This document shows, one piece after another, positions 549-61,377 of a DNA stretch of 64,000 bases. The stretch comes from Shewanella seohaensis (GTDB lineage Bacteria > Pseudomonadota > Gammaproteobacteria > Enterobacterales > Shewanellaceae), in assembly GCF_025449215.1 (NCBI RefSeq), contig NZ_CP104900.1, forward strand, positions 1,674,001-1,738,000, read 5' to 3'. Each line of letters opens with the position of its first letter. The stretch's first letter is position 1. The notes below the pieces were generated by a model that saw only the letters and a program-made list of their open reading frames with translations, was not told where the DNA came from and made no database searches. Both the position numbers and the translations under genes were made by a program.

Positions 549-2917
549 TTAACGGGTCCAAACCCAATTTTCAATTTCGACAGGGTCAACACCGTTTGCC
601 TTAATATAGTTGCGATGATCAACGAGTCGTTGCAGCATATCGGTTGTGATCGAAACGTGCTTGGTTTCATCGATGACGCCTTGTTGGAATAGTTTGTAAG
701 CCATATCAATAACAAGGTGATAGCGAGAAGTACCATTACGAACACCCATATCAAATGGTGTTGTAGTTGAACCTTCTTCTTCATAACCTTTAATTCTGAA
801 ACGGCGACTTCCTTTGTAGTCAAAAATTAACTTTTTGATAGTATTTGGATAACCGTGATAGTTAAATACAACCCCTTTATCTTGGGTAAATATTTCATCC
901 ATTATCCAAGGTTTTTCTTTAAACTTACGGCTACCTAAACCATCACTGCTTAATTCGGTCACGCTGACAAAACGAATTCTCACTCTAGGCAAGAGTTCAC
1001 GAATAATCACAAGTGAAGCCATACATTCTTGAGTGACATAATCACCACAACCCGCAAGAACGATATCTGGATTTTCATCGGAAGCAAAATCCCACACCAT
1101 CACACCGTCTTTGGCTTGCTTACGTGCTTCTTCTAAACTCAACCATTGTGGCAGTTCTTTTTACCTGCCACTAGGATGTTCAGTTTGTCACGATCGGCAA
1201 AAGCGCGTTCGGTATAAACTAAAGTGCTGTTTGCATCCGCAGGTAAATAAGCCGAAATGATCTTCGGATGTTTTTCCAGCATCGCACCCAAGAATGATGG
1301 ATTCTGATGCGAGTAACCGTTGTGATCTTGACGCTCTAATAATGAAGATAGTACGACGTTGCATGCGGGTAAGGGTTTACGGAAATGCACCCCTTGGCTG
1401 GCATAAACGTACTTACAGTATTGGTCGGCCATTGAGGACACAACCTGTGAGAAAGACTCATAGGTTGGGAACATGCCGTGACGACCTGTCACAGTGTAAC
1501 CATGTAGCATACCAAACAGTAAGTTTTCAGAGAGTAACTCGAGTACGCGGCCATCACGAGTCATATCCTCGTCCCAACTTTCAATTGGCCATTGCCATGC
1601 GCGGTCGGTTTCTTCAAATACCGCTTGCAGTTGGTTTGAATAGGTTTCGTCTGGGCTAAAGATGCGTAAGTTACGTTGATCACGGTTCAGTTTGAATGCG
1701 TCACGCATCCATTGTCCCATTTTCAACATGGAGTAACCGCGGTGTCCACGTGGTACTTCTGGGCCGTAGCTGAGCTTTTCGAGATCTGGATTCGATAGGG
1801 CTCTGACGACTTCACCACCATAAGTAAGATGTTGACGACCACAGGCTAAATGTTTGGGTGGGATCAGAGAGCTAATATCCGCATCAAAAATCAGTTCACC
1901 CTGGGCATTAATTTGGTAGAGCTCTTGGAACTGATAGCTGGCAAGCCAGTTATCCAGTGCGCTAAGGTGACCTTTATCCGTCGCGCATTTATTGACGATA
2001 ACTTGGTGCGATTCGCAGTTACCTTCTAATTTTGTACCATTATATTCGCTTACCCCTGTCCAACCTTTAGCGGTGCGCATTAAAATCACTGGCCAGCGAG
2101 GTTTGACAATATCTTCACCGTTACGAGCACGGGTTTGGATATCGTTAATCATGCTGTAAGCAGTATCCATCGCGGCAGTCATTTGAACGTAGATATCTTC
2201 TTCCGCTTCACTGTCGACAATAATTGGGTGATAACCCAGACCACGGAATTCAAGATCTAGCTCTTCATGGCTCATACGTCCCATACGGGTTGGGCCTGAA
2301 ATTTTATAGCCGTTGATATGCACGATAGGTAACACGGCACCGTTGGTTGCGGGGGAGACTAAACGGTTAGCATACCAAGAGGCTGCCAGAGGGCCGGTTT
2401 CAGATTCACCGTCACCGACTAATACTGTTGCGATAAGATCAGGATTGTCTAATACGGCGCCCCAACCTACAGCTAATGAGTAACCTAATTCGCCTCCTTC
2501 AAGGATTTGACCGGGGGCTTCAGGGTTTGCGTGTGATGGATAACCATAGGCCGCAGAAAACTTCTTACAGATATCTTCGATACCGGTTTCATTATAAGGA
2601 ATGGTTTCTGGATAGAAGTGGCTGAGTGAGCCTTCAATGAATAAGTTAGCTTGTACTGCGGGGAAACCATGGCCTGGGCCGACGAGGTAAATGAAAGGAC
2701 GATTATGTTTTACAATGAGTCGGTTGACGTTGGCATAGACAAAGTTGATACCTGGACAGGTTCCCCAGTGACCGAGCAAACGAGGCTTAATGTCCGAATG
2801 CGCAAGGGGTCGTTTGTGTAATACGTTTTGTTTTAAATAAATCTGAGACGTAGCGAGGAAGTTTGTGGCTCTTACATACTTTTTAAGAGCATTAATCTCA
2901 TGTGTAGTAGTCGTCAT
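549..2917 (-). CDS. xfp: Xylulose-5-phosphate/fructose-6-phosphate phosphoketolase (one frameshift)
   Basis: A thiamine-diphosphate enzyme that splits xylulose 5-phosphate (and often fructose 6-phosphate) with phosphate to acetyl phosphate plus a sugar phosphate. The reading frame is broken once. Codons from 2917 give the N-terminal two thirds, with GHWGTCPG, GPGHGFPA, GDGESETGP and the family motif HINGYKISGPT. Codons from 1142 down give the last third (DIVLAGCGDYVTQE to ENWVWTR). Adding one base in the T5 run at 1158-1162 (plus strand) restores one protein of 789 residues, the normal family size. The start at 2917 is preferred over 2929 because GAGG lies six bases before it. A bidirectional terminator follows. 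No acetate kinase or phosphotransacetylase gene is adjacent. Confidence 0.9.
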
Positions 2918-2929
2918 ATTAAGCCTCAT

Positions 2930-3350
2930 TGGAGCAGACGGAAGTGAATTGTGTTTTCTTGGAGTTACTATATTTGTAATTTTCTTACAAAAATGTGTTC
3001 TACATCCAAATTTTAAAACTTGTGTCTGTGGTTAACGCATGTGGCTTAAGTTTGTATTTTTGTTAATTTAATATTAACAGTGACTTATCTGAGCTTTGTC
3101 TGTGTGAGTTCACTGCTGTTTTAGTGGGCAAACGTAGGCTTGATCACATGAGTAATTTCGAATACTGTGCTATTTTGCTGCGTTGAATTCGGTAGCCGTG
3201 ATGTTGTAAATTCACGGAAGGATAATTTGAAAGAATAAATCTACCGATATTCTTACCTTTATTTGGAAGGATTCATTCACCACAAATGTTGCACCTCTCC
3301 CTTAATTATAGGTAGAGGAGGGCATTTGCTACGGGAAGAAGTAAAATAAT
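2930..3350. other. Intergenic region between divergent xfp and symporter gene
   Basis: About 420 bases without a convincing gene. It must hold both divergent promoters. One small inverted repeat is visible, CCGTGA (3196-3201) with TCACGG (3212-3217). I looked for a glycine-riboswitch-like aptamer, which precedes some AGCS genes, and did not find one. Confidence 0.5.
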
Positions 3351-4817: not shown

Positions 4818-4845
4818 ACTCAAGTTCACTGATTAGCGCTATCGG

Positions 4846-4876
4846 AAAAACCACGTCATCCGCACGTGGTTTTTTT
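4846..4876 (+). terminator. Rho-independent terminator of the AGCS symporter gene
   Basis: ACCACGT (4850-4856) pairs with ACGTGGT (4864-4870), preceded by A5 and followed by a run of seven T. Confidence 0.85.
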
Positions 4877-4925
4877 ATACCTGTTCAGTATCATAGTGGC
4901 TTATTTTATTTCTTGGAGCGTGTTA

Positions 4926-5699: not shown

Positions 5700-5716
5700 C
5701 TTATTACGGTTTAAAT

Positions 5717-5744
5717 AAAAAGAGCAGCTTAGGCTGCTCTTTTT
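5717..5744. terminator. Bidirectional terminator between yaaA and the M28 peptidase
   Basis: AGAGCAGC (5721-5728) pairs with GCTGCTCT (5733-5740) around TTAG, flanked by A4 and T4, so it serves both convergent genes. Confidence 0.85.
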
Positions 5745-5770
5745 ATGGGTGAAAGATTTACTTATGAGGC

Positions 5771-8185: not shown

Positions 8186-9742
8186 TTGAGTAAAAAATTA
8201 TTGAAATCTGGCATGATTGTTAGTGCTATGACGCTGATTTCTCGTGTTTTAGGTTTGGTTCGAGATGTAGTTGTTGCCAATTTAATGGGGGCAGGTACAA
8301 GCGCCGACGTTTTTTCTTCGCCAATAAAATTCCTAACTTTTTACGTCGATTATTTGCCGAGGGCGCTTTTGCTCAGGCATTTGTTCCCGTATTGACCGAA
8401 TATCAGGAAAAACACACTTCGGACGAGACTCGAGAGTTACTCAGTAAAGTGGCGGGGACCTTAGGGCTCTTGGTGACCATTGTGACTCTTGTCGGTGTTA
8501 TCGCTTCCCCGTATTGTCGGCCTTATTTGGTGGCGGCTGGTTTGTGGCCTGGCTTAACAATGAGCCCGATGGTGCCAAGTTTGAGCTGGCAACCGTTGTG
8601 CTTAAAATCACCTTCCCGTATTTGTGGTTTATCACCTTTACCGCGTTAGCGGGGTCCATCCTAAATACCCGTGGGCGTTTTGCTGTATCAGCCTTTACCC
8701 CAGTATTCTTAAACGTGGCCATTATTGCGGCGGCGATGTTTTTTGCGCCTACGTCTTCCCAGCCTGAAATTACCTTGGCGTGGGGGTGTTCTGTGGCGGT
8801 TTAATTCAGTTTTTATTCCAGATCCCCTTTCTACTTAGAGAAAAGGCTCTCGTTAAACCGTCATGGGGCTGGAAACACCCTGGGGTCGTGAAGATTAGAA
8901 CTCTGATGATCCCTGCGCTTTTTGGTGTGTCTGTCTCACAAATCAATCTGTTATTCGATACTTTTATCGCCAGCTTCCTGATGACGGGCTCTATTAGCTG
9001 GTTGTACTATTCGGACCGTTTATTGGAATTTCCACTCGGTTTGTTTGGTATTGCCATTGGTACAGTGATTTTACCTGCTCTATCTCGAAATCATGTAAAT
9101 GCAGAAGGCGATGGCTTTGGTAAAACCATGGATTGGGGCATCAAGGCGATTCTGTTATTAGGATTACCCGCCATGATGGGGCTGATTGTGCTCGCCCAAC
9201 CTATGTTGATGGTGCTGTTTATGCGCGGCGCCTTCTCTATCCAAGACGTTGAGATGGCATCCTACAGCTTGATGGCTTATGGCAGTGGTTTACTCAGCTT
9301 TATGCTTATTAAAGTGTTAGCGCCTGGATATTACTCGCGCCAAGACACTAAGACTCCAGTGCGCTACGGCATTATCGCCATGATCACCAATATGGGCTTT
9401 AACTTGATCTTTGCGATTCCCTTTGGTTATGTCGGCTTAGCGATTGCGACATCGATGTCGGCTTTATTGAATGCCACTTTGTTATATCGCGGCCTACATA
9501 AGGCGGGTGTTTACCGAATTTCTAAGCCAACAATGGTGTTTTTCCTTAAAGCCGTGGTTTCGGCAGCCTTGATGGTGGTAGTCTTGTACTACTTCTTACC
9601 TTCACAATCCCAATGGTTGGAATGGCAGCTGGTTGGGCGTGCTAAGGCTTTGATTGGTTTGATTGCTGTTGGCGCTATGACGTATTTACTTGGCTTATTG
9701 GCGTTAGGAATTCGTCCTTGGTCAATGAAACGGGGAGTTTGA
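8186..9742 (+). CDS. murJ: Lipid II flippase MurJ (three frameshifts)
   Basis: MurJ (MviN) moves lipid II across the inner membrane for peptidoglycan synthesis and is expected to be essential. The frame is broken three times, and one added base repairs each. (1) T6 at 8310-8315: one more T gives the family sequence DVFFFANKIPNFLRRLFAEG. (2) CCCC at 8507-8510: one more base gives GVIASPVLSALFGGGW. (3) G5 at 8782-8786: one more G gives AWGVFCGGLIQFLFQIP. The repaired protein has 519 residues and about 14 membrane segments, normal for MurJ. Start is TTG 8186 (SKKLLKSGMIVSAMTLISR) after a GGGGG ribosome site. It heads the block leading to ribF, ileS, lspA, fkpB and ispH. Confidence 0.9.
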
Positions 9743-13607: not shown

Positions 13608-14119
13608 ATGCCATTAACTTGGAAAGACAGTGGCTTACGTTGGTATTGGGTAGTTGTGTTGGTGTTTTTAGCCGATCAACTATCCAAACAATGGATCTTA
13701 GCCAATTTTGATTTGTTCGAATCGGTGAAGTTATTACCTTTTTTAATTTCACCTATGTACGTAACTATGGCGCCGCATTTAGCTTTTTAAGTGAAGCGGG
13801 CGGTTGGCAACGTTGGTTATTTACCCTAGTGGCTGTTGGTTTCAGTACCTTGTTGACTGTGTGGCTGCGCAAGCAATCGGCATCCCTATGGAAGTTAAAC
13901 TTGGCTTACACCTTAGTGATTGGTGGCGCCCTAGGTAACTTAATCGATCGATTGATGCACGGTTTTGTGGTGGATTTTATCGATTTTTATTGGGGTAAGA
14001 GCCATTATCCCGCCTTTAATATCGCCGATTCCGCGATTTTTATCGGTGCAGTGCTGATCATTTGGGATTCGTTTTTTAACAGCAAATCCGAACAAGATAA
14101 AACCGAAGAGGTGAAGTAG
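13608..14119 (+). CDS. lspA: Lipoprotein signal peptidase (signal peptidase II; one frameshift)
   Basis: Inner-membrane aspartyl protease that cleaves prolipoproteins before the lipidated cysteine. The frame breaks at the T6 run 13739-13744. Adding one T gives the family sequence FFNFTYVRNYGAAFSFLSEAGGWQRW and a 170-residue protein (E. coli 164). The catalytic aspartates lie in GNLIDRLMHG and FVVDFIDFYWG, and four membrane segments are visible. GGAT upstream is the ribosome site. Its stop overlaps the GTG of fkpB by one base. LspA should be needed for the many lipoproteins in this cell, which argues that the break is a read error. Confidence 0.92.
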
Positions 14120-15715: not shown

Positions 15716-16276
15716 ATGACTAAATTTGAACGATTGACGCATAACAGAATTCAACGGGGCTTCTCTTTAATTGAAGTGCTTGTCGCATTGGTGATTCTAG
15801 TGATTGGCTTGATCGGTATTTTTAATTTACACATAGTGGCCAAACGCGGCAGCTTTGAATCTTTTCAGCAAACACAAGCCTCCTATTACGCCAATGATAT
15901 TATCAACCGCATGAAGCTAAACCGAACGCAGCTTGATAGCTATGCCGGAGAATACACTGGCATCCCCAGTTCTGTCGCAAAGGTGTGTGAAAACACAACA
16001 CTTTGTAATCCAACAGAATTGAAGTTGTGGGATATTTTTGAATGGCAATCTTCGTTAACCGGAGAGTCTGAGACTGTTGGCACTCAAAACGTTGGGGGAT
16101 TGGATTCTCCTACGGCTTGTATTGAAGTGAATAATCGTGATGTGCTTGTTGTGATTACTTGGCGAGGAATACGCGAGACCAATATTGATACCTCAGCGGT
16201 TGCGGATGCTGCAAACACTTGTGGTGCTGACACTGAAAACAGGCGCATTTTTTCACTTAAGACAGTGATTATTTAG
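15716..16276 (+). CDS. pilV: Type IV pilus minor pilin PilV
   Basis: 186-residue prepilin-like protein. A type III signal is clear: RGFSLIEVLVALVILVIGLIG, cleaved after the glycine with Glu at +5, as PilD requires. It is followed by the PilV-typical region QQTQASYYANDIINRMKLNR and a cysteine-containing C-terminal globular domain. It is the first of a tightly packed minor pilin operon (stop adjoins pilW). Minor pilins prime pilus assembly at the inner membrane together with PilY1. Confidence 0.88.
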   Translation: MTKFERLTHNRIQRGFSLIEVLVALVILVIGLIGIFNLHIVAKRGSFESFQQTQASYYANDIINRMKLNRTQLDSYAGEYTGIPSSVAKVCENTTLCNPTELKLWDIFEWQSSLTGESETVGTQNVGGLDSPTACIEVNNRDVLVVITWRGIRETNIDTSAVADAANTCGADTENRRIFSLKTVII

Positions 16277-17272
16277 ATGAAAAAATCATTTCGTATGAAG
16301 TTAAGTAAAACCATGGAACGGGGAATGTCACTCGTTGAGTTGATGGTCGCTATGGTCATCGGGCTTTTTTTGACTGCCGGTGTTTTTACTATGTTTAGTA
16401 TGTCGTCTTCAAACGTGACGACAACAAGTCAGTTTAATCAGTTGCAAGAGAATGGTCGTATAGCCTTGGCCATTATGGAAAGAGATATTAGCCAGTTAGG
16501 TTTTATGGGGGATTTAACGGGCACTGATTTTATCGTCGGGACAAATACCAACATCGAGGTCACTACCATAACCGCTGATTGTGTCGGCGATGGGCTGAAT
16601 AACGCGACGCTGCCTAATAATCAGCCAGCCCATTTTAGGCGATTGTGGGGGTATGAGAATACTGCAACAAGTACACATCTTAGTTGTTTGGGGAACAGTG
16701 ACGTTAATGCGGATACAGATGTTTTACAGCTAAAACGCTTTATTGGGCCTAATGTCGCAACTGGGAACTCAAGCTCTGTGTATGTGGCTGCGAACTCCTC
16801 TCAGGCGGTATTTTTTGTTGGTGCAACTCCTACCACAGCACTTGAAAATCCGAGAACATGGGAATATCAACATCATGTCTATTTTATTGCAAACGACGCT
16901 AATCAAATACCTATCCTAAGGCGTAAAACCTTAACCAGTACAGGCATGAGTAACGATGAGCAGTTAGTTGAAGGCATTGAGAATATTCGATTCTTATATG
17001 GTTTTGATAATGACGGGGATAGCACTCCTGATAGCTTTATGCCTGTTGAAGATGTCACATCGTTGATGTGGGATAACGAAGGCTTTCAGCGATTAGTTGC
17101 GATAAAAGCGTTTGTACTGGTGAGATCGATTAACGAAGACAAGAGCTATACCAACGAGACTGAGTACCTTTTGGGAGACAAAACCATCACTATTCCTGCT
17201 AACGACCATTATCGTCGTAAGGTATTGTCAACAACGATCGTATTGGAAAACCCAGTACTTATACGCAGTTAA
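16277..17272 (+). CDS. pilW: Type IV pilus assembly protein PilW
   Basis: 331 residues, the large minor pilin. Prepilin leader RGMSLVELMVAMVIGLFLTAG, then RIALAIMERDISQLGFMG, a conserved PilW feature, and a long C-terminal domain. Its stop TAA is at 17270-17272 and the next gene starts within 16 bases. Confidence 0.88.
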   Translation: MKKSFRMKLSKTMERGMSLVELMVAMVIGLFLTAGVFTMFSMSSSNVTTTSQFNQLQENGRIALAIMERDISQLGFMGDLTGTDFIVGTNTNIEVTTITADCVGDGLNNATLPNNQPAHFRRLWGYENTATSTHLSCLGNSDVNADTDVLQLKRFIGPNVATGNSSSVYVAANSSQAVFFVGATPTTALENPRTWEYQHHVYFIANDANQIPILRRKTLTSTGMSNDEQLVEGIENIRFLYGFDNDGDSTPDSFMPVEDVTSLMWDNEGFQRLVAIKAFVLVRSINEDKSYTNETEYLLGDKTITIPANDHYRRKVLSTTIVLENPVLIRS

Positions 17273-17287
17273 TTGAGGCCATGTGTG

Positions 17288-17722
17288 ATGAGAAAGCAGA
17301 AAGGGATCGTGTTGTTTTTTGCATTAATTGTCTTGGTCCTCATGACAGTAATTGGTGTTGCGTTGGCGGTTAACTCAACACAATCGTTGCGAATGTCAGG
17401 AGCGGGCGCAGAAAGAATAGAAGCTAAAGCGATTGCTGATGGTGGTTTAGAGCAGGTAATTTCAGATTATTCGGGCGAGCAATTGGCAAACCTTAACGCA
17501 GAGGCGGATACAACAGTATTTAATAGCAGCCAGACATTGAAGCCCTTGCCTGAAACGGGCGTGCGTGATGTGGGATGCCAAAGAACCACAAATGCGACAG
17601 GGGCAAATTTGGTTAGCTGTAGAAGGGTTGAGATTAGCAGTTCAGTGACCTTTGGTCGGGACAATCTTGGCTCATTAACCGTTGTTTCAGGTGTAGAGCA
17701 ACAAGTGCTAACAGGAAACTAA
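17288..17722 (+). CDS. pilX: Type IV pilus assembly protein PilX
   Basis: About 144 residues with N-terminal RKQKGIVLFFALIVLVLMTVI, the PilX pattern (prepilin-type leader lacking the usual Glu+5, hydrophobic helix, then NSTQSLRMSGAGAERIEAKAIADGG). ATG 17288 is preferred over TTG 17273 because GAGG lies nine bases before it. Somewhat shorter than many PilX proteins. Its partner pilY1 begins a few bases downstream. Confidence 0.83.
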   Translation: MRKQKGIVLFFALIVLVLMTVIGVALAVNSTQSLRMSGAGAERIEAKAIADGGLEQVISDYSGEQLANLNAEADTTVFNSSQTLKPLPETGVRDVGCQRTTNATGANLVSCRRVEISSSVTFGRDNLGSLTVVSGVEQQVLTGN

Positions 17723-17726
17723 AGTT

Positions 17727-20700
17727 ATGTTGAAAAAACTCTTTTGTGCTCTTATGGCTGCAACAGTCATTATTGCAGGGCAAATACATGCAGATGATAC
17801 AGAGCTTTATCTTGTTGACTCAACGGTAAGGACTGGCAAGCGCCCACAGGTGTTATTTATCTTTGATAACTCAGGGAGTATGTCAACGGAAGATCAGAAT
17901 GCTGTCAGCTCATATTGTTCCGAAGCTGGTCATGCGGCAGGTACTTGTACCTATCCTGCAGGATTTGAGACATACATGAACAGTTATTCTGGGTATATCA
18001 ATCAGAAAGGTACCTATTGGAATGCAGGCGGTATCGATAATACCAGCAATATGCCGACCCCTGATGATCCTAATGATGGTCGTCGTTTTTATTTGGGAAA
18101 TAATAACTGTAATACTGCTGCCAAAGCGTTAGTGGATAAGGGACGTTACACAGGATACTTGCGAGAGTTTAACAAAAATAAGTGGGAGTCTTTAGCAAAC
18201 AATAATGGTTTTAATCAGAACGATATTGTTGACTGCTACGAAGATATTCTCAATAAAGACCCTAAAAATCCAGGTTCAACTAATAAAAACCCAACGTTTG
18301 CAAATGGTTATCCTGTTGATACTAACAAAATGTATACATCGGGAAGCTCTGAGACAGATCGTTTATATAGCTTAAATAATACAAAGTTTGGAACCGAAAC
18401 GCCGGTGACACTTTACTCTGCACATTACCTTGTGTGGTACAAGTGGGCTACAACTACAACAGAAGGGCAGAATAGTGGTGGTACTGGTACTCGTTTAGAT
18501 GTCGCAAAAAATGCACTTAAGTCAGCATTAGAGTCCTTGGCTATTCCCATTGATGCAGCTCTTGCCGTTTATAACTTGAACTATCCAACCGAAAATTATG
18601 CTGACGGTGGACGTATTATTTATGATATGACCGAAATGACGGAAGCCAATAAGTCCTCTTTAATATCTTTAATTAGGGACATGCCTGCTCAAACCAATAC
18701 ACCTCTGTGTGAAACATTATATGAAGCTTATCAATTTTTTAGTGGCGGACCTGTCACCTTTGGTAATGATGATAAAAATGCGACAGGATATTATAAGGTT
18801 GATAACTATACGCCAAATAGTCCCTCAAGCATCTTGATGAGTGGCAATTATGCTACGAAGTTTAAAGCATGTCCGGATACCGCATATGTGATTTATATTA
18901 CCGATGGTGCGCCAACAATCGACCATGCTGCGGACGATTCGATTAAGCAATTAACTTCAACCGCTAAAGTCGCTGGTGACTACAGCGCTATGAGTTTCAA
19001 AGATGATCGTAATCAAGATGATTTTAGTTATTTGCCTGCTTTAGCGGCTTATATGTACAACAATGATATTGTTGTTGGGCCGAAAGATTCGAATGGTGTT
19101 GATAACAAACAAAACGTTAGATTGTTTACCATAGGCTTTTCTGACGGTGCGGATAAAGCAGCTGCGCTCTTGGAGGAGGCGGCTTTTAGGGGCGGAAGCC
19201 CAAGAGTAAATGGCGTATCTAAAGGTTATTACGTCGCTAAAACGGGCCTTGATTTAGTCGAAGCGATGAACGACGCATTAAAGTCTATTCTGACCATTGA
19301 TTCATCTTTCACCTCTCCGAGTATTGCCAGTAACAACTTCGATAAAACTCAGACCTATAACTCAGCTTACTTTGCCATGTTTTTACCCGGTGGTGGACCC
19401 CGCTGGAGTGGTAATTTGAAAAAGCTGAAAGTTAATTCCTCTGGTGAGATTGTCGGTCCAGGTGGTACGACGGGAGCAATTGATACTAACGGCAATATAT
19501 CAAGTGATACATGCACCTATTGGAATACCTGTCCCGCAGGTAACATTGATGGTAATAAGGTTAAATCGGGTGGGGTGTTACCGACCTTAAAATCCCAATT
19601 AAAAAATAGAAAAATATATATAAATGATGGAAGTGGTTTGAGTTTGCTTACAACAATAAGCGATTCGAGTTTTTATTCTCTTCTAGGAAGTCCTGCAACT
19701 AGCTCCGTTTCTGATACTGTCTCCAAGAATCGAGACTGGATTTATGGTGTAGATGTTGATGATGAAGATAATGATGAAATCTATACCGACCCTCGAGATG
19801 ATATTATGGGGGATCCTCTCCATTCGAAGCCTCTCGCCATTAACTTCGGTAATAAACCTACAACAGATGCCGATGGCAATGTGACATCTGAAAATCTTGA
19901 TGTTCGAATCTTAGTTGGCACCAATCAGGGATTGGTACATATGTTTAAAGATTCTGACACTGGTAGTGGCGATTATGCTGTTGGTTCAGTTACCGAGTCT
20001 TGGGCATTTATACCATCTGAATTAGTACATAACATTCCAACACTCAGGCAAGATGATTCGACTGGTACTCACAGTGTTTATGGGATGGACTTATCACCGG
20101 TTGCATATACTGAGACGGATTCGGTTGGTAAAGTTAATAAGGCTTGGGTTTTCCTTGGGATGAGGCGCGGCGGCACATCTTACTATGCGTTAGATATCAC
20201 AAACCCAGATTCACCACAGTATAAGTGGCTGATCAATTCTAGTACGGAAAAGTTTGAAGACTTAGGCCAAAGCTGGTCAGAACCTGTCGTCACTTTTATC
20301 CCATCAATCTCTGAACCAGTATTGATTTTTGGTGGCGGGATGGAATCAGCAGAGGGTTCTGGGGCTGCTGTTTATATTGTCAAAGCATTTACTGGTGAAT
20401 TTGTGACTAAGTTTACCGCTACGGGAATGAGCAGTATCCCAAATAAAGTGGCTGTGTTAGACAGTAATAATGATGGTATCTCTGATCGGATATATGCAAG
20501 TGACATCGAGGGAAGTATTTGGCGAATAGATTTACCTTCGACGAATAAAACAAATTGGTCTGTATTCCAATTTGCTAAAATTGCAACAACGAGCTCTCCT
20601 AACAACCGCATGTTTTTTGCTGAACCTACAGTGGCCCAAACCCAGTTTAATAATATTCATTCTGAAAATGGGGTCTTATCCTATCAGAGTATCCCGTATG

Positions 20701-21301
20701 ACGCTGTCACTGTGGGTACGGGGAATAGAACGCATCCATTGGACATCGCCACTAATGACATGTTTTATGTATTTCAGGATAGAAATGTTGTCACTAAACA
20801 ATTCACTGGCACCGATATACCGGCCCCTCTAACGATTTCTAATCTGTATGATGTGACCTCTGCGGCACCTACTTCGCAGAGTGATAATATTGCTTTTGGG
20901 CAAAAGAGAGGCTGGTATTATGATTTCCCTGCCACGGGAGAGAAAAGCCTATCTTCCTCGCTTATTTTTGATGGTAAAGTTTATTTCACTTCATTTGTTC
21001 CGCCGACTAACCAAGCCGTTGATTTGGATGCGGGGGTATGTGGTTTTTCAGGACAGGGACGACTCTATGTATTTGACCTACATAAAGGTACTCGAACATC
21101 AAGTACACTTTACTATGAGGTTGGTGAACGTATTCCTGATACCCCCAAATCGTTATCCCTGAGCCACAACCGGGTGAAGAGCCGAAAGCGTATGTTATCG
21201 GTGTTGGTAAAGGCGAGTGTGAGAACGGTGAATGCAAGGGAACGATCGAATTGGGTAGTGGCTTAAAGACTAACAAAATTTATTATCATATTGATGAGTA
21301 A
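17727..21301 (+). CDS. pilY1: Type IV pilus tip-associated adhesin PilY1 (frameshift near C-terminus)
   Basis: Large secreted or surface protein of the pilus tip, acting in pilus extension, surface sensing and adhesion. Signal peptide at 1-22. A von Willebrand-like MIDAS is at residues 47-51 (DNSGS). The C-terminal half is the PilY1 beta-propeller, with a calcium-loop-like DSNNDGISD near residue 911. As read, the frame stops at 21266 after a low-complexity tail. Adding one base in the C5A3 stretch at 21142-21149 instead gives a tail containing IPEPQPGEEPKAYVIGVGKG and ending YYHIDE, with the stop at 21301, overlapping pilE by eight bases. That tail looks more natural and holds two cysteines. 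The repaired length is 1191 residues. Confidence 0.9.
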
Positions 21302-21707
21302 GAACATTAATGAAAAAAATAGACTGCAAGGGTTCACTTTAATTGAAGTCATGATCGCTGTTGTTATTGTGGGGATTTTAGCTTCGATAGCGTATCCATC
21401 ATACATTGATTACGTGGTTAAGAGTGGACGGTCTGAAGGTGTTGCGGCGGTGATGAAGGTTGCAAATCTTCAAGAGCAGTATTATTTGGATAACCGAGCC
21501 TATACTACTGATATGACCAAACTGGGGTTAGCCGCTAATCCTTTTGTTACAGAGCATGGGCGTTATAGCTTAGCGTCAAGTGGAACCAGTTCATTCACTA
21601 TCACTGCGACTGCACAAGGTTCGCAGGCTAGTCGAGACTCAACGTGTGCGACTATTACGATGACATCTGCTGGTGTAAAGGGGCCTTCTGCGGAGTGTTG
21701 GAAATGA
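21294..21707 (+). CDS. pilE: Type IV minor pilin PilE
   Basis: 137 residues. Prepilin leader GFTLIEVMIAVVIVGILASIAYPSYIDYV, then NLQEQYYLDNRAYT and a short C-terminal disulfide region (CATI...ECWK). This matches PilE-type minor pilins found last in pilV-W-X-Y1-E operons. ATG 21294 overlaps the repaired pilY1 end; the stop TGA overlaps the ATG of the next gene. Confidence 0.88.
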   Translation: MSKNINEKNRLQGFTLIEVMIAVVIVGILASIAYPSYIDYVVKSGRSEGVAAVMKVANLQEQYYLDNRAYTTDMTKLGLAANPFVTEHGRYSLASSGTSSFTITATAQGSQASRDSTCATITMTSAGVKGPSAECWK

Positions 21708-23391: not shown

Positions 23392-23760
<369 letters not shown>

Positions 23761-26687: not shown

Positions 26688-26744
26688 TCCATCGGAATGG
26701 TTATGAATACTAAAACGATAATAAAGTTATGGAAGGGAAACGAG

Positions 26745-29365
26745 ATGCGACCATCATCCTTTAAGAAAAGTGTACTAGCTACAAACATTGCTATCCTACT
26801 CGGCAGCGCTGTTTCAATCGGAGCTGTTGCTGCAGAAGCTGAAGCCACTGCAGCTGCTGAAAATATTGAGAAAATTGAAGTTCGTGGTATGAGAGCTTCG
26901 ATGAAAGCTTCTGTTAACGACAAACGTTTTTCTGATTCTGTCGTTGATGCTGTGACTGCAGAAGATATCGGTAAATTCCCTGATGGTGACGTAGGGGAGT
27001 CCTTAGGTCGTATTCCTGGCGTTGCTGTAAACCGTCAGTTTGGTCAAGGACAGCAAGTTTCTATCCGTGGCGCTTCAAGCCAATTAACGAGCACGTTACT
27101 GAACGGCCATTCAGTTGCTTCTACTGGTTGGTTTGACCAACAAGCTATCGACCGTAGCTTTAACTACAGCTTACTGCCACCAGAAATGGTTGGTGGTATT
27201 CAAGTTTACAAATCATCTCAAGCAGATATCGCTGAAGGTGGTATCGGCGGTACTGTAATTGTTAAAACTCGTAAACCTTTAGATTTGGAAGCGAACTCAG
27301 TCTTTCTGAGTGCGAAAGGGGATTACGGAACCGTTTCAGAAGAAATTGATCCACAAACTTCAGGTTTGTACAGCTGGAAAACGGAAGATGAGAAGTTTGG
27401 TTTCCTAGTGGCAGGTTCTTTGGATCAAACACAATATCAACGTAACGGTATTGAAACTCTGTTAGGTTGGGGGAAATTGTTCCTACTACTTTCCAGCAAG
27501 ACCGTGAGCGCACAGCTTTAAATGCTGCATTCCAATACAGACCAACTGATAACCTGGAATTCGGTCTGAATTTAATGAGCTTACAGCTCGATGCTAACAA
27601 CGCTAACACGTCAATTTTCTTATTCCCAACCCAGCAAGGTGAGAATACTTGTCTTAAGAAAAATGCCGCAGGCGTATGTACATTAGTTGAACACACAGAT
27701 AAAGGCGGATTTGCTTGGGCACAAACATGGGCTCGTAAAGCAAGTATGTCATCAGACACTGTGGATTTAGATTTCGCTTATCAGGCTGATAACTATAAGT
27801 TAGAAGGCCGTATCGGTAAAACTAAAGCTGAAGGAGGTACCGATCTTACTTCTAACTACGGTCAATCAATTGGTAAACCAGAAGATTTCGCAGGGACTTA
27901 CGATGCAACTGGTGATGTGATTGACATCAACATTGCAAACAACTCATTTGATGCGGGTGACTTCAACGGTCAATTGGAAACTGCTGGTTGGGCACTGAAA
28001 AAACAACCTAACACAGACGAAGAATCATTTGCGACCTTCGATATTACTGTTCCGGTTGAATTTGGCGTTATTACCTCTATTAAATCAGGTATTAGCTATG
28101 CAGACCACGATGTAACTCAAACGACTGAAGCTGCACAATCATCTAATATTGTCGCAAAAGATGCCTCTGAATATTACTCTGGCACTATGTCATCTGGCGC
28201 TGGTTTTACCTTACCTAAGCCAATTTTTGACAATATGATCAGAGATGCTTATGGCGCTATTGATGGCTTTACTTTAGATAAGTCTGGTTACGGTACACTG
28301 CAAGAGAAAAACTTAGCCCTGTACACTATGGCTACTTTTGCCGGTGAAGGTGTGCGTGGTAACTTCGGTTTAAGATATATCTCTACCGATGTTGAGTCTG
28401 ACTACTACGCGTTTAGCCAAACTGGTACTTATGCTGATGTTTTAAGTACTGATAAGGCAAGCTATCACGATGTATTACCAAGCATGAACATTGCGTTTGA
28501 CTTGGCAAGTGACTTAATTTTAAGAGCATCAGCTGCGCAAGTTATTTCTCGTCCTAACTATGCGGATCTCTTCGCGACGTCTAAGTTACCAGGTTTCAAC
28601 GATGGTACGCCAGGCAACGAGAAGAAAGTGACTGGTAGCGTGAATCTGCAGCCGTTCAAAGCCTCTCAGGCTGATCTGAGCTTAGAATGGTACTTCAGCG
28701 GTGAAGGATTATTTGCTGTTACTTACTTCATTAAAGATGTTAACTCTTTCATTTCGACAAGAGAAAAGCTGAACCAACAGATTGGTATTGATGATCCTAA
28801 CTTAGTTGCGCAAGGTGGCAGTTCTTGTGGTGCAGGCATCTACGACTGCTGGACCGTGAGTGAAAACTACAATGCTAACGGTGGTTCTATCGATGGTATT
28901 GAGTTGCAGTTGCAAGATTCATTTGACAATGGTTTTGGTTACTCAGCTAACTACACCTTTGCAGATGCTTCATCTCCAGCTGAAAACTATGCGGATCGCG
29001 TAGGGGTGTTCTCTGACTCATCTAAGCATACTGTTAACTTAGTGGGTTACTATGAAATCGATGATTTCTCTGCTCGTGTAGCTTATAACTGGCGTTCTGA
29101 GTACATGATGCGCGAATTACCAGGCTTCTACGGTAACCGCGAGCACCAAGCCTACGGCACGTTAGATTTAAGTGCTAACTACGATGTAACTGACTACTTA
29201 TCTGTGACATTTGAAGTGGTTAACTTACTTGAAGAGGATAGCATTCAGAAAGGTGTATCACCTGTTGATGCTGAAGGCGTTATCAGTGAGTTTAAAGATA
29301 ACTACCCAGTGTGGAGCTTCGATGGTGAAGCTCGCTACAAACTTGGTGTAGCACTGCGCTTCTAA
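26745..29365 (+). CDS. TonB-dependent receptor, predicted chito-oligosaccharide uptake (one frameshift)
   Basis: Outer-membrane gated channel, 873 residues when repaired. Signal peptide MRPSSFKKSVLATNIAILLG, then IEKIEVRGMRASMKAS (TonB-box region), plug domain (DIGKFPDGDVGESLGRIPGV, VSIRGASSQLTSTLLNG, GGIGGTVIVKTRKPLD) and a beta-barrel ending in the aromatic VALRF. This resembles the large carbohydrate TonB receptors of Shewanella, Xanthomonas and Caulobacter. The frame breaks at G5 27469-27473; one more G gives ETLLGWGEIVPTTFQQDRE. ATG 26745 is chosen over 26697 because AAGGG lies before it and a signal peptide begins there. Chitin-oligomer uptake is inferred from the NagR site and neighbours. 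Confidence 0.88.
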
Positions 29366-29462: not shown

Positions 29463-30984
29463 ATGACAATCAGAAAAATAGCCATTATAGGGGGGGACTT
29501 CAGGTTGGTTAGCGGCGAATCATTTAGGGCGAGTGTTGCAGGGGCGCTCTGAGCTATCTATCACGCTGATTGAATCTCCTGATATTCCTATCATCGGAGT
29601 TGGTGAAGGTACTGTACCGTCCATTCGGAAATCACTACAGAGTTTTGGGATCAGTGAATCAGAGTTTATTCGCTCATGCGATGTGACATTTAAGCAGTCA
29701 ATTAAATTTGTCAATTGGTTAGATCAAGCTCGACATGGTAAGGATAATTTCTACCACCATCTATTTGATATTATTAATTTACAAGGCTTAGATACTGTTT
29801 CTGCTTGGTTGGCCGAGAAACAAGGCGATTTTGCTGATTATGTTTCTCCCCAGCATCTTGTTTGTGAGGCTGCAAAAGCGCCAAAGCTAATCACAACACC
29901 CGAATATGCCGGAGTGTTAGGCTATGCCTATCATCTAAATGCGGCAAAATTTGCCAAATTACTGGCTAAAAATGCGATTGAGAAATTCAACGTTGAGCAC
30001 ATTTTTGCCACTGTGCAGGATGTTCGTTTAGGCGATGATGGTGCAATTTCATCTTTGCAGACCGAGCAAGGGACTCTCTCTTTCGATTTTTATATTGATT
30101 GCAGTGGCTTTGAATCGATTTTGTTAGCTAAGGCACTAAAAGTGCCATTTATCAGTAAAGCGCATCAACTGTTTATTGATACTGCGTTAGTCGCGCAAAT
30201 CCCGACGCAACCTACGGATATCATCCCTCCTTATACTCAAGCAACGGCCCATCAAGCGGGTTGGATTTGGGATATCGCATTGACTCAGCGCCGAGGCACG
30301 GGATTTGTCTATTCGTCTGCTCATATGGCGCAGTCAGAGGCAGAGCGAAAGTTTGACCATTATCTCGGTGGCAAACTTGCCGATGTTCCCCATCGTAAAA
30401 TTCCAATGACAGTGGGTCATCGTCAACAGTTTTGGGTAAAAAACTGTGTAGCTTTAGGGTTAGCTCAAGGCTTTTTGGAGCCGATTGAAGCGACATCCAT
30501 ATTGTTAACGGATTTCTCTGCACGTTTTCTGGCAGAACGTTTTCCTGTGCATACAGATGATGTTGATTACTTAGCAAAGCGATTTAATGATACCGTGGGC
30601 TATGCATGGGAGCGGGTCGTTGAATTTGCCAAACTACATTACTGTTTATCGGATAGAACTGACTCGTCATTTTGGCTAGATAATCAGGCTTCAGAGACTA
30701 TTCCCGAAGGATTAAAGCAACGACTCGAACTATGGAAATCCTATAGTCCTATTGCTGAAGATTTTCCATCTAAGTTTGAAGTGTTTAACTTAGACAATTA
30801 TTTATACGTGCTTTATGGCATGAAATATCAGACTAATTTGCGTGGTGGGTCATCGGCAACACAGGCCTCTTTGAACATGTATATGAACAAAATGTCGAAG
30901 GTAAAACAACAGATGCTAGATGGTTTGCCTGAGCATAGGGAATTGCTCGATAAAATCTGTACCTATGGTTTGCAATCTATTTAA
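29463..30984 (+). CDS. Flavin-dependent tryptophan halogenase-like protein (one frameshift)
   Basis: FAD-binding protein of the tryptophan 7-halogenase family. The frame starts at ATG 29463 (GAGG seven bases upstream) but breaks in the G7 run at 29490-29496. Nine G would give the expected nucleotide motif IGGGTSGWLAAN; one G fewer would give IGGTSGW. Repaired length is 507 (PrnA has 538). Family catalytic features are kept: Lys78 in FKQSIKFVNW (PrnA Lys79), the Trp-x-Trp motif GWIWDIA at 268-270 (Pro replaced by Ala), and Glu343 in FLEPIEAT (PrnA Glu346). It sits between a TonB receptor and a SapC-like gene. Substrate is unknown and halogenation unproven; such genes recur beside sugar TonB receptors. 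Confidence 0.85.
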
Positions 30985-33029: not shown

Positions 33030-33143
33030 TAGGTAGAGCGACCTTGCTTAGGATAAGCAGACAAGTTAGCGGCATTAAAAAATAAAACTCGCTGGATATT
33101 CCAGTCATAAAAAAGAGGCTGCGATTCATGGTTATTCATATTG

Positions 33144-33164
33144 CTACACTGCTTGGCAGTGTAG
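33144..33164 (+). repeat. Perfect hairpin just upstream of the binding-protein gene
   Basis: CTACACTGC (33144-33152) pairs perfectly with GCAGTGTAG (33156-33164) around TTG. It is 26 bases before the start codon and has no T-tract, so a translational or RNA-stability role is possible. Confidence 0.6.
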
Positions 33165-33189
33165 TAACTACTTTGCTAAGCGTTTGCTG

Positions 33190-34112
33190 ATGCCCATCCT
33201 TGGACTCTGGGCGAGCGCTATGGTTTGCGCTTTTAGTTTCACCGCGATAGCCGCCGTGGAGTCGGCGTCGTTTACGCTTACCAATGCAGCTACTGCAGGC
33301 ACTTCTACGGCAAACAATGCCGCTCCCATTAAGATAGTGACCACAATCCAACAGCAGTGGCAGTTTAATCTCCTCAAAGAGGCGCTGCGCCGCTCAGGTC
33401 AGCCCTATCAGGTCGAACAAATGTCGACGCAGATGAACCAAAAACGTAAGGTCGAAGAAGCGCTTGCTGGTACTGTCGATGTTTTTGGAGCATGACTTCG
33501 AAGGAGCTTGAGGAAACCGTGCTCCCGGTTCGTATCCCTTTGTTTAAGGGATTACTCGGTAACCGCCTGTTAATTATCCGCAAAACGGATGAGGCTAGAT
33601 TTGCCAATGTAAAAACGCTGGCGGATTTTAAGCGATTAAAAGCAGGGCAAAACCGCTATTGGCCCGATGCCAGCATCCTTGAAACCAATGGTTTGCCTGT
33701 TGTGACTAGCTATCAATACACCAATCTGTATCCGATGTTAGAGGGTGGCCGATTCGATTACCTTGCCCTCGGCGCACAGGAAATTGGCGATGAACTCGCA
33801 AGCCACCCCGATCCTGCGCTGAAAATCGATACTCATATCCTGCTGCAATACCGTTCGCCAGCATATTTTTTTGTGTCCCCAAAACGCCCCGAGTTAGCGG
33901 CGGCAATCTTAGCTGGGCTCGAAAATATGATAAGCGACGGCAGCTTTGATGAGATGTTTAATCGTGAGCTTAAGATAGACAAGCTCTACCGTGATGCCCA
34001 GTTTGAGCAGCGCGTCATTATTCGTCTCGATACGCCCGATTTAAGTCCCTTAACCCCCATTGAACGCCAAGAGTTGTGGTTAGATCTATTTAGTATGCAA
34101 GGTGCAAAATAA
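33190..34112 (+). CDS. Periplasmic solute-binding-like protein paired with a chemoreceptor (one frameshift)
   Basis: When repaired, 307 residues: an N-terminal signal peptide ([21 protein letters not shown]) and a type 2 periplasmic-binding fold with [47 protein letters not shown] and [12 protein letters not shown]. The frame breaks in T5 at 33482-33486; one more T gives [16 protein letters not shown]. The stop overlaps the start of the chemoreceptor gene (TAATG), so the two are translated together. A role as periplasmic ligand-binding partner of that receptor is inferred from coupling and NagR control. It lacks neighbouring ABC-transporter genes. The start could also be TTG 33184. Confidence 0.75.
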
Positions 34113-39450: not shown

Positions 39451-39508
39451 GCCGTTTTAGCGCATCAGTGCTAAAGCAATACCCGTATTGATTTGTAAGG
39501 TAAATAAC

Positions 39509-40531
39509 ATGACAAACACTATTATGGAGCAAGAAGCTCGCACCGCGCCGCAGAAGATTGCGGGTCAGTTAGCCGCTAACGCCGATTTAATGCAGCAGTT
39601 AGGTGAAAAACTGCGTGCTTTCGATCCCCGTTTTGTGATGATTGTGGGCCGTGGTTCATCGGACCATGCGGGTGTATTTGCTAAATATCTTTTTGAAATC
39701 GAAGCGGGTGTCCCCACCTTTGCTGCCGCGCCATCTGTGGCCAGCGTTTACGGTAAAACCTTGAAGTTAGAAGGCGGATTAGTGATTGTGATTTCGCAAT
39801 CTGGCCGCAGCCCTGATATTTTAGCCCAGGCGCGTATGGCGAAAAACGCAGGCGCGTTTTGTGTGGCGTTAGTGAATGATGAAACCGCGCCAATCAAGGA
39901 TATCGTCGATGTGGTGGTGCCATTACGTGCTGGCGAAGAGAAAGCCGTTGCTGCAACAAAGAGCTACCTTGCAACTCTGTCGGCGATTCTACAATTAGCC
40001 TCGGCGTGGACGCAGAGCGAATCCCTCGCGGCGGCTGTTAACTCTTTACCTCAAGCACTGCAAACTGCGGTCGATGCTGAGCCTCAATTGACTCCAGCAT
40101 CGGTTGAAAACGTGAAAAACTTAGTAGTGTTAGGCCGTGGTTTAGGTTATGCCGTGTCTAAGGAAATCGCACTTAAGTTAAAAGAAGTGTGTTCTATCCA
40201 TGCCGAAGCCTTTAGTAGTGCAGAGTTCCTCCATGGTCCTGTGACCTTAGTGGAGAAAAAACTCACGATTGTGGATGTCTGCATTGGCGATGAGTCGTAC
40301 GCTAGCCATATCGAACAGATTGAAAATGTGAGCCAACGTGGCGCCGATTTAGTGCATTTAAATCAAACATCGACTGATATTCACCCACGTGTTGCGCCGT
40401 TAGCCCTGCTACAACGTTTTTATATCGACGTGGCCGCAGTCGCGGTTGCCCGCGGTATTGACCCAGACCAACCCGCTGGGCTGAAAAAGTCACTCAAACG
40501 CTGTAATGGATGGCCGTTGTTGTCGCGTTAA
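39509..40531 (+). CDS. nagB: Glucosamine-6-phosphate deaminase, SIS-domain type (NagB-II)
   Basis: Converts glucosamine-6-phosphate to fructose-6-phosphate and ammonia. 340 residues with two SIS sugar-isomerase domains, resembling the isomerase half of GlmS without its glutaminase half: VGRGSSDHAGVFAKY, VISQSGRSPDIL and KEVCSIHAEAFSSAEFLHGP. Shewanella uses this non-orthologous enzyme in place of the classical NagB. ATG 39509 has AAGG upstream and is preferred to TTG 39488. The gene begins 58 bases after nagK. Confidence 0.9.
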   Translation: MTNTIMEQEARTAPQKIAGQLAANADLMQQLGEKLRAFDPRFVMIVGRGSSDHAGVFAKYLFEIEAGVPTFAAAPSVASVYGKTLKLEGGLVIVISQSGRSPDILAQARMAKNAGAFCVALVNDETAPIKDIVDVVVPLRAGEEKAVAATKSYLATLSAILQLASAWTQSESLAAAVNSLPQALQTAVDAEPQLTPASVENVKNLVVLGRGLGYAVSKEIALKLKEVCSIHAEAFSSAEFLHGPVTLVEKKLTIVDVCIGDESYASHIEQIENVSQRGADLVHLNQTSTDIHPRVAPLALLQRFYIDVAAVAVARGIDPDQPAGLKKSLKRCNGWPLLSR

Positions 40532-44713: not shown

Positions 44714-45435
44714 TTAGAAGGCGTAACTGACGCTTGCTAATACTGTATCGTCGTTTTTCCACACACCGTCGGAGACTTTCTGATCGCCGCTCAAGTCGGT
44801 GCCAAGCCAAGCGAGTGACAGGCCAAATCCCATAAATTCGGTGGATACGCCAACGGAATAATCCGAGTAGCTATCAAAGCCTTCGCCATCGTCTAAGGCA
44901 TCGCCTACGTTGTAGCCGTAATGCAGATCGAGGCTCCAGTTTTCAACAAACTCATAGGAGTAATTGATTTCGCCGTAGTGATAATCTAAATCGCTGCCGC
45001 CGTAATCATTGGTGTACCAATAGGCCACGCGAAAGCCGCTAAACTCGACGCCAGCCGTTACTTCGAAATAGCCGAGTTCACTCTCGCCCGAATAGTTATA
45101 GCGGTTGAGGGTCACGTCGTAACTGACGTTATCATTGATGTCACCGCCGTAGGCAACATAAAAGTCGTACTCGATATCTGGACCGTTGTAGCCTGGCTCG
45201 TCAAAGTCGACATTACTGGCCCAGGCGCCGACCGAAAATCCCGACTCAAAACTCCAATCGACACCACCTTGAACCGCAGGATCGCCCGCTGTTTGCGAGA
45301 TACCACGGAAGCGATAATCGTTGGTTACGCCAATTTCCCCGACACTTCTGCGGCGGCAATGCCGGAGAATAAACTGGTCGTTAGCGCGAGCCCAACAACT
45401 TGTGCCAGCCGCTTTTTATTTAGGTTGTTATTCAC
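44714..45435 (-). CDS. TorF family putative porin (Gcw_chp domain; one frameshift)
   Basis: Predicted outer-membrane beta-barrel of the Shewanella-rich Gcw_chp family, which has a conserved glycine- and aromatic-rich repeat ending in Phe. GTG 45435 follows GGGAG and starts a signal peptide (LAQVVGLALTTSLFSGIAAA). The frame breaks at the C4 run 45337-45340; one more base gives AEVSGEIGVTNDYRFRGISQ, the family's hallmark opening, and a 240-residue protein. The C-terminal part (VTLNRYNYSGESELGYFEV to VLASVSYAF) is read cleanly. Acidic strands (GGSDLDYHYGE, DALDDGEGFDSYSDY) may favour cations. Substrate unknown. Confidence 0.82.
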
Positions 45436-55346: not shown

Positions 55347-56106
55347 ATGTCTGTCGAGTTGCCCCTTATTGGTGTTATTGCGTGTAATCAACAATTGGGA
55401 TCACATCCCTTTAATATTGTTGGTGAAAAATACCTCTTAGGTGTAGTGAATGGTGCTAAGGGCTGGCCCTTAGTGATCCCCTCATTAGGTGCTGAACAAC
55501 CTATAGAGGCGATTCTGGCAAGTCTCGATGGCATTCTCTTTACCGGTTCGCCTTCGAATGTTGAACCCCATCTCTATGCGGGTGAACCGAGTGAAATCGG
55601 TACTCACCACGATCCCAAACGCGATGCCACCACCTTACCGCTTATTCGTGCGGCCATTGCGGCGGGTGTGCCTGTGCTTGGGATTTGTCGTGGCTTTCAA
55701 GAGATGAACGTCGCTTTTGGTGGCAGTCTGCATCAGAAGTTGCACGAAGTGGGCGGTTTTATTGAACACAGAGAAGATAAAGAGGCCTCATTAGAGGTGC
55801 AATATGGGCCATCCCACAGTATTACTGTGGAGCCTGGGGGTCATTTACGAGGCCTGGGGCCGTAACTCGGCAGAGGTAAACTCTGTACATACTCAGGGCG
55901 TAGAGCGTCTTGGGATTGGGTTGCGGCCAGAAGCTTATGCTCCAGATGGTCTAGTGGAGGCCTTCTCCGTTATAGACGCAAATGAATTTGCCCTCGGTGT
56001 GCAATGGCATCCTGAATGGAAGGTGAGTGAAAACCCATTTTTCCTCTCTATATTCAATGCCTTTGGTGATGCATGCCGTCGTAGGGCTACAACTCGAGTG
56101 AAATAA
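55347..56106 (+). CDS. puuD: Gamma-glutamyl-GABA hydrolase (one frameshift)
   Basis: Class I glutamine-amidotransferase-like hydrolase that frees GABA from gamma-glutamyl-GABA. Nucleophile Cys114 ([11 protein letters not shown]), the same number as in E. coli PuuD; the His of the triad is in LGVQWHPEW. The frame breaks in G5 at 55836-55840. Seven G would give [16 protein letters not shown] and a 253-residue protein (E. coli 254); removing one G would also restore the frame but lose a glycine. It is one base from puuA. Confidence 0.9.
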
Positions 56107-57463: not shown

Positions 57464-59181
<1,718 letters not shown>

Positions 59182-59340
59182 TCGAGATGGGGCAAGCATT
59201 GCTTGCCCCTTTTAATCGCACAGACATTGCCTTGCTCCTTGAGCATTCGGCCTACAGATTTTATCTCTATTCATTAATTCATTGTGTAAATCTCAAGTAT
59301 TGAACGCCTTGTCGCATCAATACTCGGGTGGAGAAGTACT

Positions 59341-60476
59341 ATGGCAAGCACCTCGGGCGTCACCAACAAACCCACTACAAAGACGCAAGAAAAAGTCCTG
59401 CTTAAGATTGAGCGGGTCAGTAAATTGTTCGACGATGTACGCGCGGTTGACGACGTATCATTGACGATTAATAAAGGTGAGATTTTTGCTTTACTTGGGG
59501 GCTCTGGCTCAGGGAAGTCGACCTTATTGCGTATGCTCGCGGGGTTCGAAAGACCGACCTCGGGACGGATTTTTCTCGACGGTGAAGACATTACCGATTT
59601 GCCCCCTACGAACGTCCCATCAACATGATGTTCCAGTCTTATGCGCTCTTTCCCCATATGACGGTCGCGCAAAACATCGCCTTCGGTTTAAAGCAAGATA
59701 AGTTGCCCAAAGCGGAAATTGAGCAAAGGGTGCAAGAAATGCTCAAGTTGGTGCATATGGAGCAATATGGCAAACGTAAGCCGCATCAGCTTTCCGGCGG
59801 TCAGCGTCAACGGGTGGCGTTAGCCCGCTCCCTCGCGAAACGTCCTAAGTTATTGCTACTCGATGAACCTATGGGCGCACTGGATAAAAAGCTGCGTACT
59901 CAGATGCAGTTAGAAGTGGTTGAAATTCTTGAGCGTGTAGGCGTGACCTGTGTAATGGTGACCCATGATCAGGAAGAAGCTATGACCATGGCGGGCCGCA
60001 TTTCGATTATGAGCGACGGTTGGATTGCCCAAACTGGTTCACCTATGGACATTTACGAGAGTCCAAACAGCCGCATGATTGCCGAATTTATCGGTTCAGT
60101 GAACCTCTTTGGCGGTGAGATTGAAGTGGACGAAGTCGACCACCTCATCATTAAACCCAATGATTTAGCTCAGCCTTTCTATGTGGGTTACGGGGTAACG
60201 ACCAGTGCCGAGGAAAAGCATGTGTGGTTAGCGGTACGCCCCGAAAAAACCATTATCAGCCGTGAGCAACCTGAGGGCGAGTACAACTGGGCCAAGGGCA
60301 TAGTGCATGACATCGCCTACTTAGGTGGCATTTCGGTGTACTACATTCGCCTCGAGAACGGCCAAATAGTGCAATGCAGTATGACCAACCGTGAACGCCG
60401 TGCCGACCATGCGACATGGGATGATGAAGTGTTCATCAGCTGGGAGGACACCAGTGGCGTGGTGTTAAGATCATGA
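59341..60476 (+). CDS. potG: Putrescine ABC transporter, ATP-binding protein (one frameshift)
   Basis: ATPase subunit, 378 residues when repaired (E. coli 377). Walker A LLGGSGSGKSTLLRM, signature LSGGQRQRVALARSL, Walker B LLLLDEPMGALD, and a C-terminal regulatory TOBE domain (WLAVRPEKTII). The frame breaks in C5 at 59602-59606; one more C gives TDLPPYERPINMMFQSYALF, the conserved Q-loop region. The stop overlaps potH (ATGA). Confidence 0.93.
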
Positions 60477-61377
60477 AGATGAAGTCAAAACTAAAATGGC
60501 TTAAGGGACGTTTCTGGACGATTAGCTTCCCTATGCTTGGCTGTTGTTGTTCTTCGCCTTGCCCTTTGCCATTGTTCTTAAGATCAGTTTTTCGACGGCG
60601 GCGATTTCGATTCCGCCCTACGAGGCGACCTTCCAATATGCGGATGATGTATTAAACATCTTCCTGCATTTAGGTAACTATTTGATGTTACTCGATGATT
60701 CGCTGTATTACACCGCGTATCTCAGTTCATTAAAAATGGCGCTCATTTCGACCATTGGCTGTTTGATCATTGGTTATCCCATGGCCTATGCCATCGCCCG
60801 TGCGCCAGCAAGGTTGCAAACCGTGCTGTTGTTATTGGTGATGTTACCTTCTTGGACCTCGTTCTTAATCCGCGTTTATGCCTGGATGGGGATCTTAAGT
60901 AACACGGGGATTATCAATAACACATTGATGTGGTTAGGAGTTATTTCTGAGCCATTGCAAATCTTAAACACTAACATCGCCGTTTATATCGGGATTATCT
61001 ACGCCTATTTGCCCTTTATGATTTTGCCTTTGTACGCGACCTTAGTGAAGTTAGATATGAGCCTGATTGAGGCTGCATCTGACTTAGGGTCGAGCCGTTT
61101 AAATACCTTCTGGAAAATCACTTTCCCGTTATCGAAGAGCGGGGTGATTGCAGGTTCTATGCTGGTGTTTATTCCTGCGGTAGGGGAGTTTGTGATCCCT
61201 GAGCTGCTCGGTGGCCCAGATTCTCTGATGATAGGTAAAGTACTGTGGCAGGAATTCTTCAATAACCGTGACTGGCCAGTGGCCTCATCACTGGCGATTG
61301 TGATGCTGGCACTCTTGATTATTCCTATTACCTTATTCCATCGCTATCAGGCGCGTAGTTTGGAGAAAGACCTATGA
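60473..61377 (+). CDS. potH: Putrescine ABC transporter, permease (one frameshift)
   Basis: Inner-membrane permease, about 301 residues repaired, six helices. The frame breaks near 60536-60540; one more T gives FPMLWLLLFFALPFAIVLKISF. The permease EAA loop is at IEAASDLGSSRLNTFWKITFPLS. GEFVIPELLGGPDSLMIGKV is typical of PotH. It overlaps potG and potI by ATGA, so translation is coupled. Confidence 0.92.

Follow-up and report, generated by a model that had tools for sequence, protein, structure and literature searches.

Recurrent frame breaks in a Shewanella chromosome assembly as probable consensus errors, mainly homopolymer undercalling

Long-read assemblies are described in three papers (Kastor, PMC12007338; Homopolish, PMC8011154; R10.4, PMC9262707) as carrying short insertions and deletions (indels) tied to homopolymer runs and as suffering mass frameshifting, and these errors were cured by accurate reads or by relatives; one uncorrected draft in the Kastor text had 1234 pseudogenes (23.3% of genes). 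The literature search on the present genome or its like gave nothing helpful, its only yield being one method paper. The sequence analysed here (the window) was a 64,000-nucleotide stretch of the Shewanella seohaensis assembly GCF_025449215.1 (NZ_CP104900.1, positions 1,674,001 to 1,738,000), and the chromosome carrying it was a single contig of 4,751,888 bases, recognized as Shewanella by its relatives. The window contained 17 frame-changing events in 14 genes, and these breaks, judged by sequence comparison, would with a probability of about 97% be consensus errors of this assembly, mainly homopolymer undercalling. The likeness to long-read homopolymer errors extended to their extent: 43 of 163 open reading frames (ORFs) compared at five chromosomal sites were affected (28 of 163 for internal events only), next to the 23.3% of genes in the Kastor draft. 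The two differed in base preference: most deletion errors were located in A and T stretches in Kastor, where counts rather than rates were given, while G/C runs of 5 and 6 were here affected more often per run than A/T runs of equal length.

The window was aligned to syntenic stretches of five relatives (G015, G105, G131, G132, and G060), with four more distant relatives (G002, G006, G007, and G020) as further checks; it shared 92 to 95% DNA identity with the close relative G015 over three long blocks and 69% in a short fourth one. A first-pass annotation, made from the letters of the window, had listed 14 frame breaks in 12 genes. All 14 were present in the letters at the listed positions, and 13 of them appeared as indels in the alignment to G015, the break in pilY1 being the one listed site where G015 did not align. 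The positions were correct for 13 of the 14, while the break in potH had been misplaced by about 7 bases (given as 60536-60540). The count of events and genes proved too low, since three further frame-changing losses had been missed: 21317 (pilin-like gene), 33173-33175 (binding-protein gene), and 40488 (nagB-II). The statement that two sites deviated from a one-base repair was borne out by two-base losses in the halogenase and puuD-like genes, as was the placement of 13 of the 14 sites in or beside homopolymers: a run of at least 4 was present in the window at 13 of the 14 positions, and runs of at least 4 covered 6.6% of window bases. At 29490 and 59602, the long window run was partly produced by the loss itself, and G015 had other bases inside it.

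The comparison relative by relative scored, in all nine relatives, the net difference in length up to 25 bases from each site. Every aligning relative (3 to 9 of 9) displayed the identical net difference from the window at 13 of the 14 sites on the list, and the differences at 33173-33175 and 40488 were likewise unanimous in five of five aligning relatives. For glnB, the one-base difference was found in six of eight aligning relatives, and the other two (G006 and G007) carried additional indels in non-coding sequence immediately ahead of the start. The least secure of the 17 events was 21317, common to four of eight aligning relatives; the other four were 69 to 71% alike there and had unrelated gaps before the start. 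The frame breaks thus set the assembly of the window apart from its relatives.

Event rates were obtained from six sequences (the window and the five relatives), every one of them compared to the ORFs called in the remaining five. ORFs were called mechanically as the longest non-overlapping ones of at least 100 aa (80 aa in some comparisons), only those above 85% identity and entirely inside an aligned block entered the counts, and an event was taken as internal when it lay more than 30 bases from either end of its ORF. The window had 13, 11, 13, 13, and 10 internal frame-changing events compared to G015, G105, G131, G132, and G060, respectively, while each of the 20 ordered pairs of relatives gave 0, 1, or 2. 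Pooled, this amounted to 60 events in 216.6 kb (0.277 per kb) for the window versus 13 in 873.3 kb (0.015 per kb) for the relatives, a ratio of approximately 19-fold that is not a test, because the comparisons share sequences and the pairs are not independent; 58 of the 60 pooled window events were losses in the window. With the window's own ORFs as reference, the count was lower (1 to 4 for each relative), as it should be if the broken genes have ceased to yield long ORFs. The window had two frame-changing extra bases relative to G131 (the counterparts of window positions 4908 and 47515) that were unreported against the other four references and probably belong to G131 itself.

The comparison with G015 was also applied to four further sites of 40 kb each (160 kb), located near 1.0, 2.4, 3.2, and 3.9 Mb, the relative-to-relative control being confined to the window. 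The window and these four sites had 13, 6, 7, 5, and 2 internal events in 48.2, 28.9, 29.0, 34.5, and 27.8 kb of compared ORF length, respectively, and event density was not significantly different across the five sites (chi-square p = 0.36). Genes broken internally at the other four sites included, by family match, bioB, a deoD-type phosphorylase gene, aat, truD, rlmD, and a dCTP deaminase gene; the events in hslU and prc were near gene ends and stood outside the 33 internal ones. Some internal events may sit at or before a true start, because ORFs were taken as the longest possible; examples are 33173-33175 and mnmA, where the family match started at residue 50 and the event was at base 146. 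The same type of break was present through the genome as sampled (these four sites plus rpoB and rpoC), essential genes included.

Direction and run length gave the errors a distinct profile. Relative to G015, the five sites together had 33 losses and 0 gains among internal coding events; without the end filter, there were 46 events with bases lacking and 3 with bases extra, the latter comprising one at base 22 and two at the ends of ORFs. One-base indels were 35 lacking and 3 extra inside ORFs versus 54 and 27 outside (Fisher p = 0.003); that losses prevailed outside ORFs as well suggests errors beyond genes too. For runs flanked by identical bases in this genome and G015 at the five sites, A/T runs were shorter here in 0 of 337 cases at length 5, 7 of 106 at length 6, and 12 of 27 at length 7, and G/C runs in 1 of 291 at length 4, 6 of 35 at length 5, and 4 of 5 at length 6; among runs of at least 5 in either genome, this genome had the shorter run in 31 cases and the longer one in 9. 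The frequency of loss climbed steeply from run length 5 or 6 upward; the first-pass annotation had proposed such a count of indels by homopolymer context, in an alignment to a finished Shewanella genome, as a check. One position of opposite sign was window 45611, upstream of the porin gene, where a run had one C more than in G015; this difference was non-coding, and G002 and G006 aligned without the extra C.

Essential genes had been reported among those hit, and this held for murJ and lspA in the window and for rpoB and rpoC beyond it. A cell is not viable without RNA polymerase or MurJ. In this genome, murJ was found in four profile matches and lspA in two, while of 129 genomes searched in the genus, 124 had murJ in a single match, the exceptions being this genome, G003, G062, G106, and G140; the murJ pieces were 98% identical over 322 residues and 97 to 100% identical over 67 residues to MurJ of relatives. 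Rescue by a paralogue was rejected, as no second copy of murJ or lspA was found in the genome at the thresholds used. P0003, reached through its MurJ, was considered as a possible further assembly of this strain and turned out to be a near relative only: its MurJ had 8 differences from that of G015 apart from the start residue, and it was unlike the window's pieces as well. The rpoC gene (G000:C1:300798-304842) was split into two matches and was one match in seven of eight relatives searched (exception G140); it and the adjoining rpoB fragment (L188) were both named by family match, and DNA identity of this locus to relatives was about 92%.

The absence of decay signs, likewise claimed by the first-pass annotation, was supported by the ratio of nonsynonymous to synonymous substitution rates (dN/dS), which was 0.038 in the 43 broken ORFs versus 0.046 in 120 intact ones, calculated from codons taken in the frame of the relative upstream and downstream of each break; very recent decay would escape this measure. 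The same script counted 1 in-frame stop substitution among broken ORFs and 5 among intact ones. The sequence flanking the breaks is under normal purifying selection. Of the mismatch repair genes, mutS and mutL were covered: mutS was matched over profile positions 1-839 of 840 and mutL over 1-553 of 555, both in open frames with no internal stops.

Several observations weigh against reading the breaks as consensus errors dominated by undercalling. The breaks in rpoC and the adjoining rpoB, aligned to five relatives, were 1-base insertions, and thus the type of error was not purely undercalling; several losses were not in runs, among them potG 59603 and two events at the other sampled sites (1.00M site, 37011; 3.90M site, 36340). 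A/T runs of 5 were longer in 5 of 337 cases and shorter in 0. Within the window alone, the asymmetry between shorter and longer runs was weak (9 to 2 compared to G105, p = 0.065; 11 to 4 compared to G015, p = 0.12), in the same direction as the five-site result, and the 3.90M site had only 2 internal events in 27.8 kb. The changes in glnB, the pilin-like gene, and nagB-II were at gene ends, where a true change might be tolerable, and that in the pilin-like gene was backed by only four of eight aligned relatives. Finally, we infer the cause, sequencing plus assembly, from assembled sequences and from a single assembly of the strain. The explanation by base undercalling offered by the first-pass annotation accordingly covers most errors but not the losses outside runs or the insertions in rpoB and rpoC, while its broader reading as an assembly artefact was supported by breaks that were private to the assembly, loss-biased, dependent on run length, recurrent at five sites, and located in essential genes.

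Real recent pseudogenisation of many genes in the strain (genome decay) would account for frames that are broken as printed, and, if very recent, would not yet be visible in dN/dS; it is nevertheless very improbable, given that single-copy essential genes were affected (three breaks in murJ alone, plus rpoB and rpoC), that dN/dS was not relaxed, and that all 33 internal coding events were losses, with loss tied to run length. A hypermutator strain, in which failing mismatch repair let slippage indels become fixed, would likewise produce run-associated and length-dependent indels, but such a strain is hardly credible here: mutS and mutL were in open frames over nearly their whole profiles, essential genes could not remain broken, no matching internal coding gains were found at the five sites, and some events were outside runs. 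In some bacteria, ribosomes or RNA polymerase are known to slip on runs, and real frameshifts might be tolerated if such slippage restored the frame, a scheme to which the runs of at least 4 at 13 of the 14 listed sites would lend themselves. It is just as hard to credit, because relatives kept the in-frame length and hence conserved no out-of-frame slippery site, and because slippage fits neither runs of just 4 to 6 nor the losses of two bases, those outside runs, and the extra base in each of rpoB and rpoC. A living Shewanella with hundreds of real short-run frameshifts, even in murJ, lspA, and rpoC, that obtained working proteins through genome-wide slippage would be extremely improbable.

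A milder variant, compatible with consensus error as the general cause, would be that most breaks are artefacts and one or a few terminal changes are true (the glnB start, codon 3 of the pilin-like gene, the nagB-II end, or 33173-33175). Changes at gene ends may be tolerable, the glnB frame is open, and the pilin site was not uniform among relatives; on the other side, these changes were of one kind with the internal events, and at glnB, nagB-II, and 33173-33175 the window differed from most or all of the relatives that aligned, which makes this variant unlikely, if less so than the preceding ones. Consensus error remains the preferred explanation of the frame breaks: genes that were intact in relatives, with the same type of break elsewhere and even in essential genes, almost certainly reflect sequencing or assembly mistakes rather than biology. 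The dominant error would be the dropping of a base, at times of two, within or next to single-base runs, with losses outside runs plus a few insertions as the minority, and such dropout would fit an assembly from long reads that received hardly any accurate polishing or none; a long-read platform would presumably be behind this assembly.

Table 1. Genes with frame breaks in the window (positions counted from the first base of the window)
Gene	Position	Strand	Break
xfp (phosphoketolase)	549..2929	-	1158-1162; T run lacks one base relative to G015
murJ	8186..9742	+	Three: 8310-8315, 8507-8511, 8782-8786
lspA	13608..14119	+	13739-13744
pilY1	17727..21266	+	21142-21149, near C-terminal end; frame continues in relatives
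Pilin-like gene	21310..21707	+	21317, third codon; absent from first-pass list
glnB	23416..23760	+	A run 23426-23430 lacks one base relative to G015, directly after start codon
TonB-dependent receptor	26697..29365	+	27469-27473
Halogenase gene	29463..30984	+	29490-29496; two bases fewer than in three aligning relatives
Binding-protein gene	33129..34112	+	33482-33486 and 33173-33175
nagB-II	39488..40531	+	40488, near C-terminal end; absent from first-pass list
TorF-family putative porin	44714..45435	-	45337-45340
puuD-like gamma-glutamyl-GABA hydrolase	55347..56106	+	55836-55840; two bases fewer than in relatives
potG	59341..60476	+	59602-59606
potH	60473..61377	+	C run 60529-60531

The affected genes of the window are listed in Table 1. 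NCBIfam families were sought at a cut-off of 1e-10 for 30 of the 43 broken ORFs, i.e., all except murJ, lspA, and 11 ORFs from the other sites, and at this cut-off no family was found for 6 of the 30, including the halogenase and binding-protein genes, which therefore keep the names given by the first-pass annotation. The break 33173-33175 possibly precedes the true start of the binding-protein gene. The glnB frame was open from the upstream ATG at 23416, so the N-terminus was altered and the gene was not cut.

At the pilY1 site, six of nine relatives aligned, and all six differed from the window by one base; in 118 of the 120 PilY1 homologues listed, the alignment spanned only 95 to 98% of the window's open frame. 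PilY1 of the window was 98% identical to one named Shewanella mangrovisoli. The pilus-gene block around it (window 16133-21260) was approximately 69% identical to G015 or unaligned, while its flanks were 92 to 95% identical, and by this pattern it is likely an exchanged or fast-evolving cassette.

Split essential genes were also encountered elsewhere in the genus: murJ was in more than one match in G003, G062, and G140 (one contig each) and in G106 (about 50 contigs), and G140 resembled the present genome further in having rpoC in two matches. G003 and G062 differed in that rpoC was one match; the likeness is one of match counts, and the causes may differ. The same problem may be present in other representative Shewanella genomes.

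The frame breaks are thus not a biological feature but an instance of an already well-described error class, and their importance is one of data quality only. If the five sites are typical, approximately 800 internal frame-changing errors would be present in the coding part of the chromosome, an extrapolation that assumes 87% coding (our own figure). Automated annotation of this assembly would list hundreds of false pseudogenes, and studies of gene loss or essentiality using this representative genome of the species would be misled, although in the real bacterium the genes are very probably intact.

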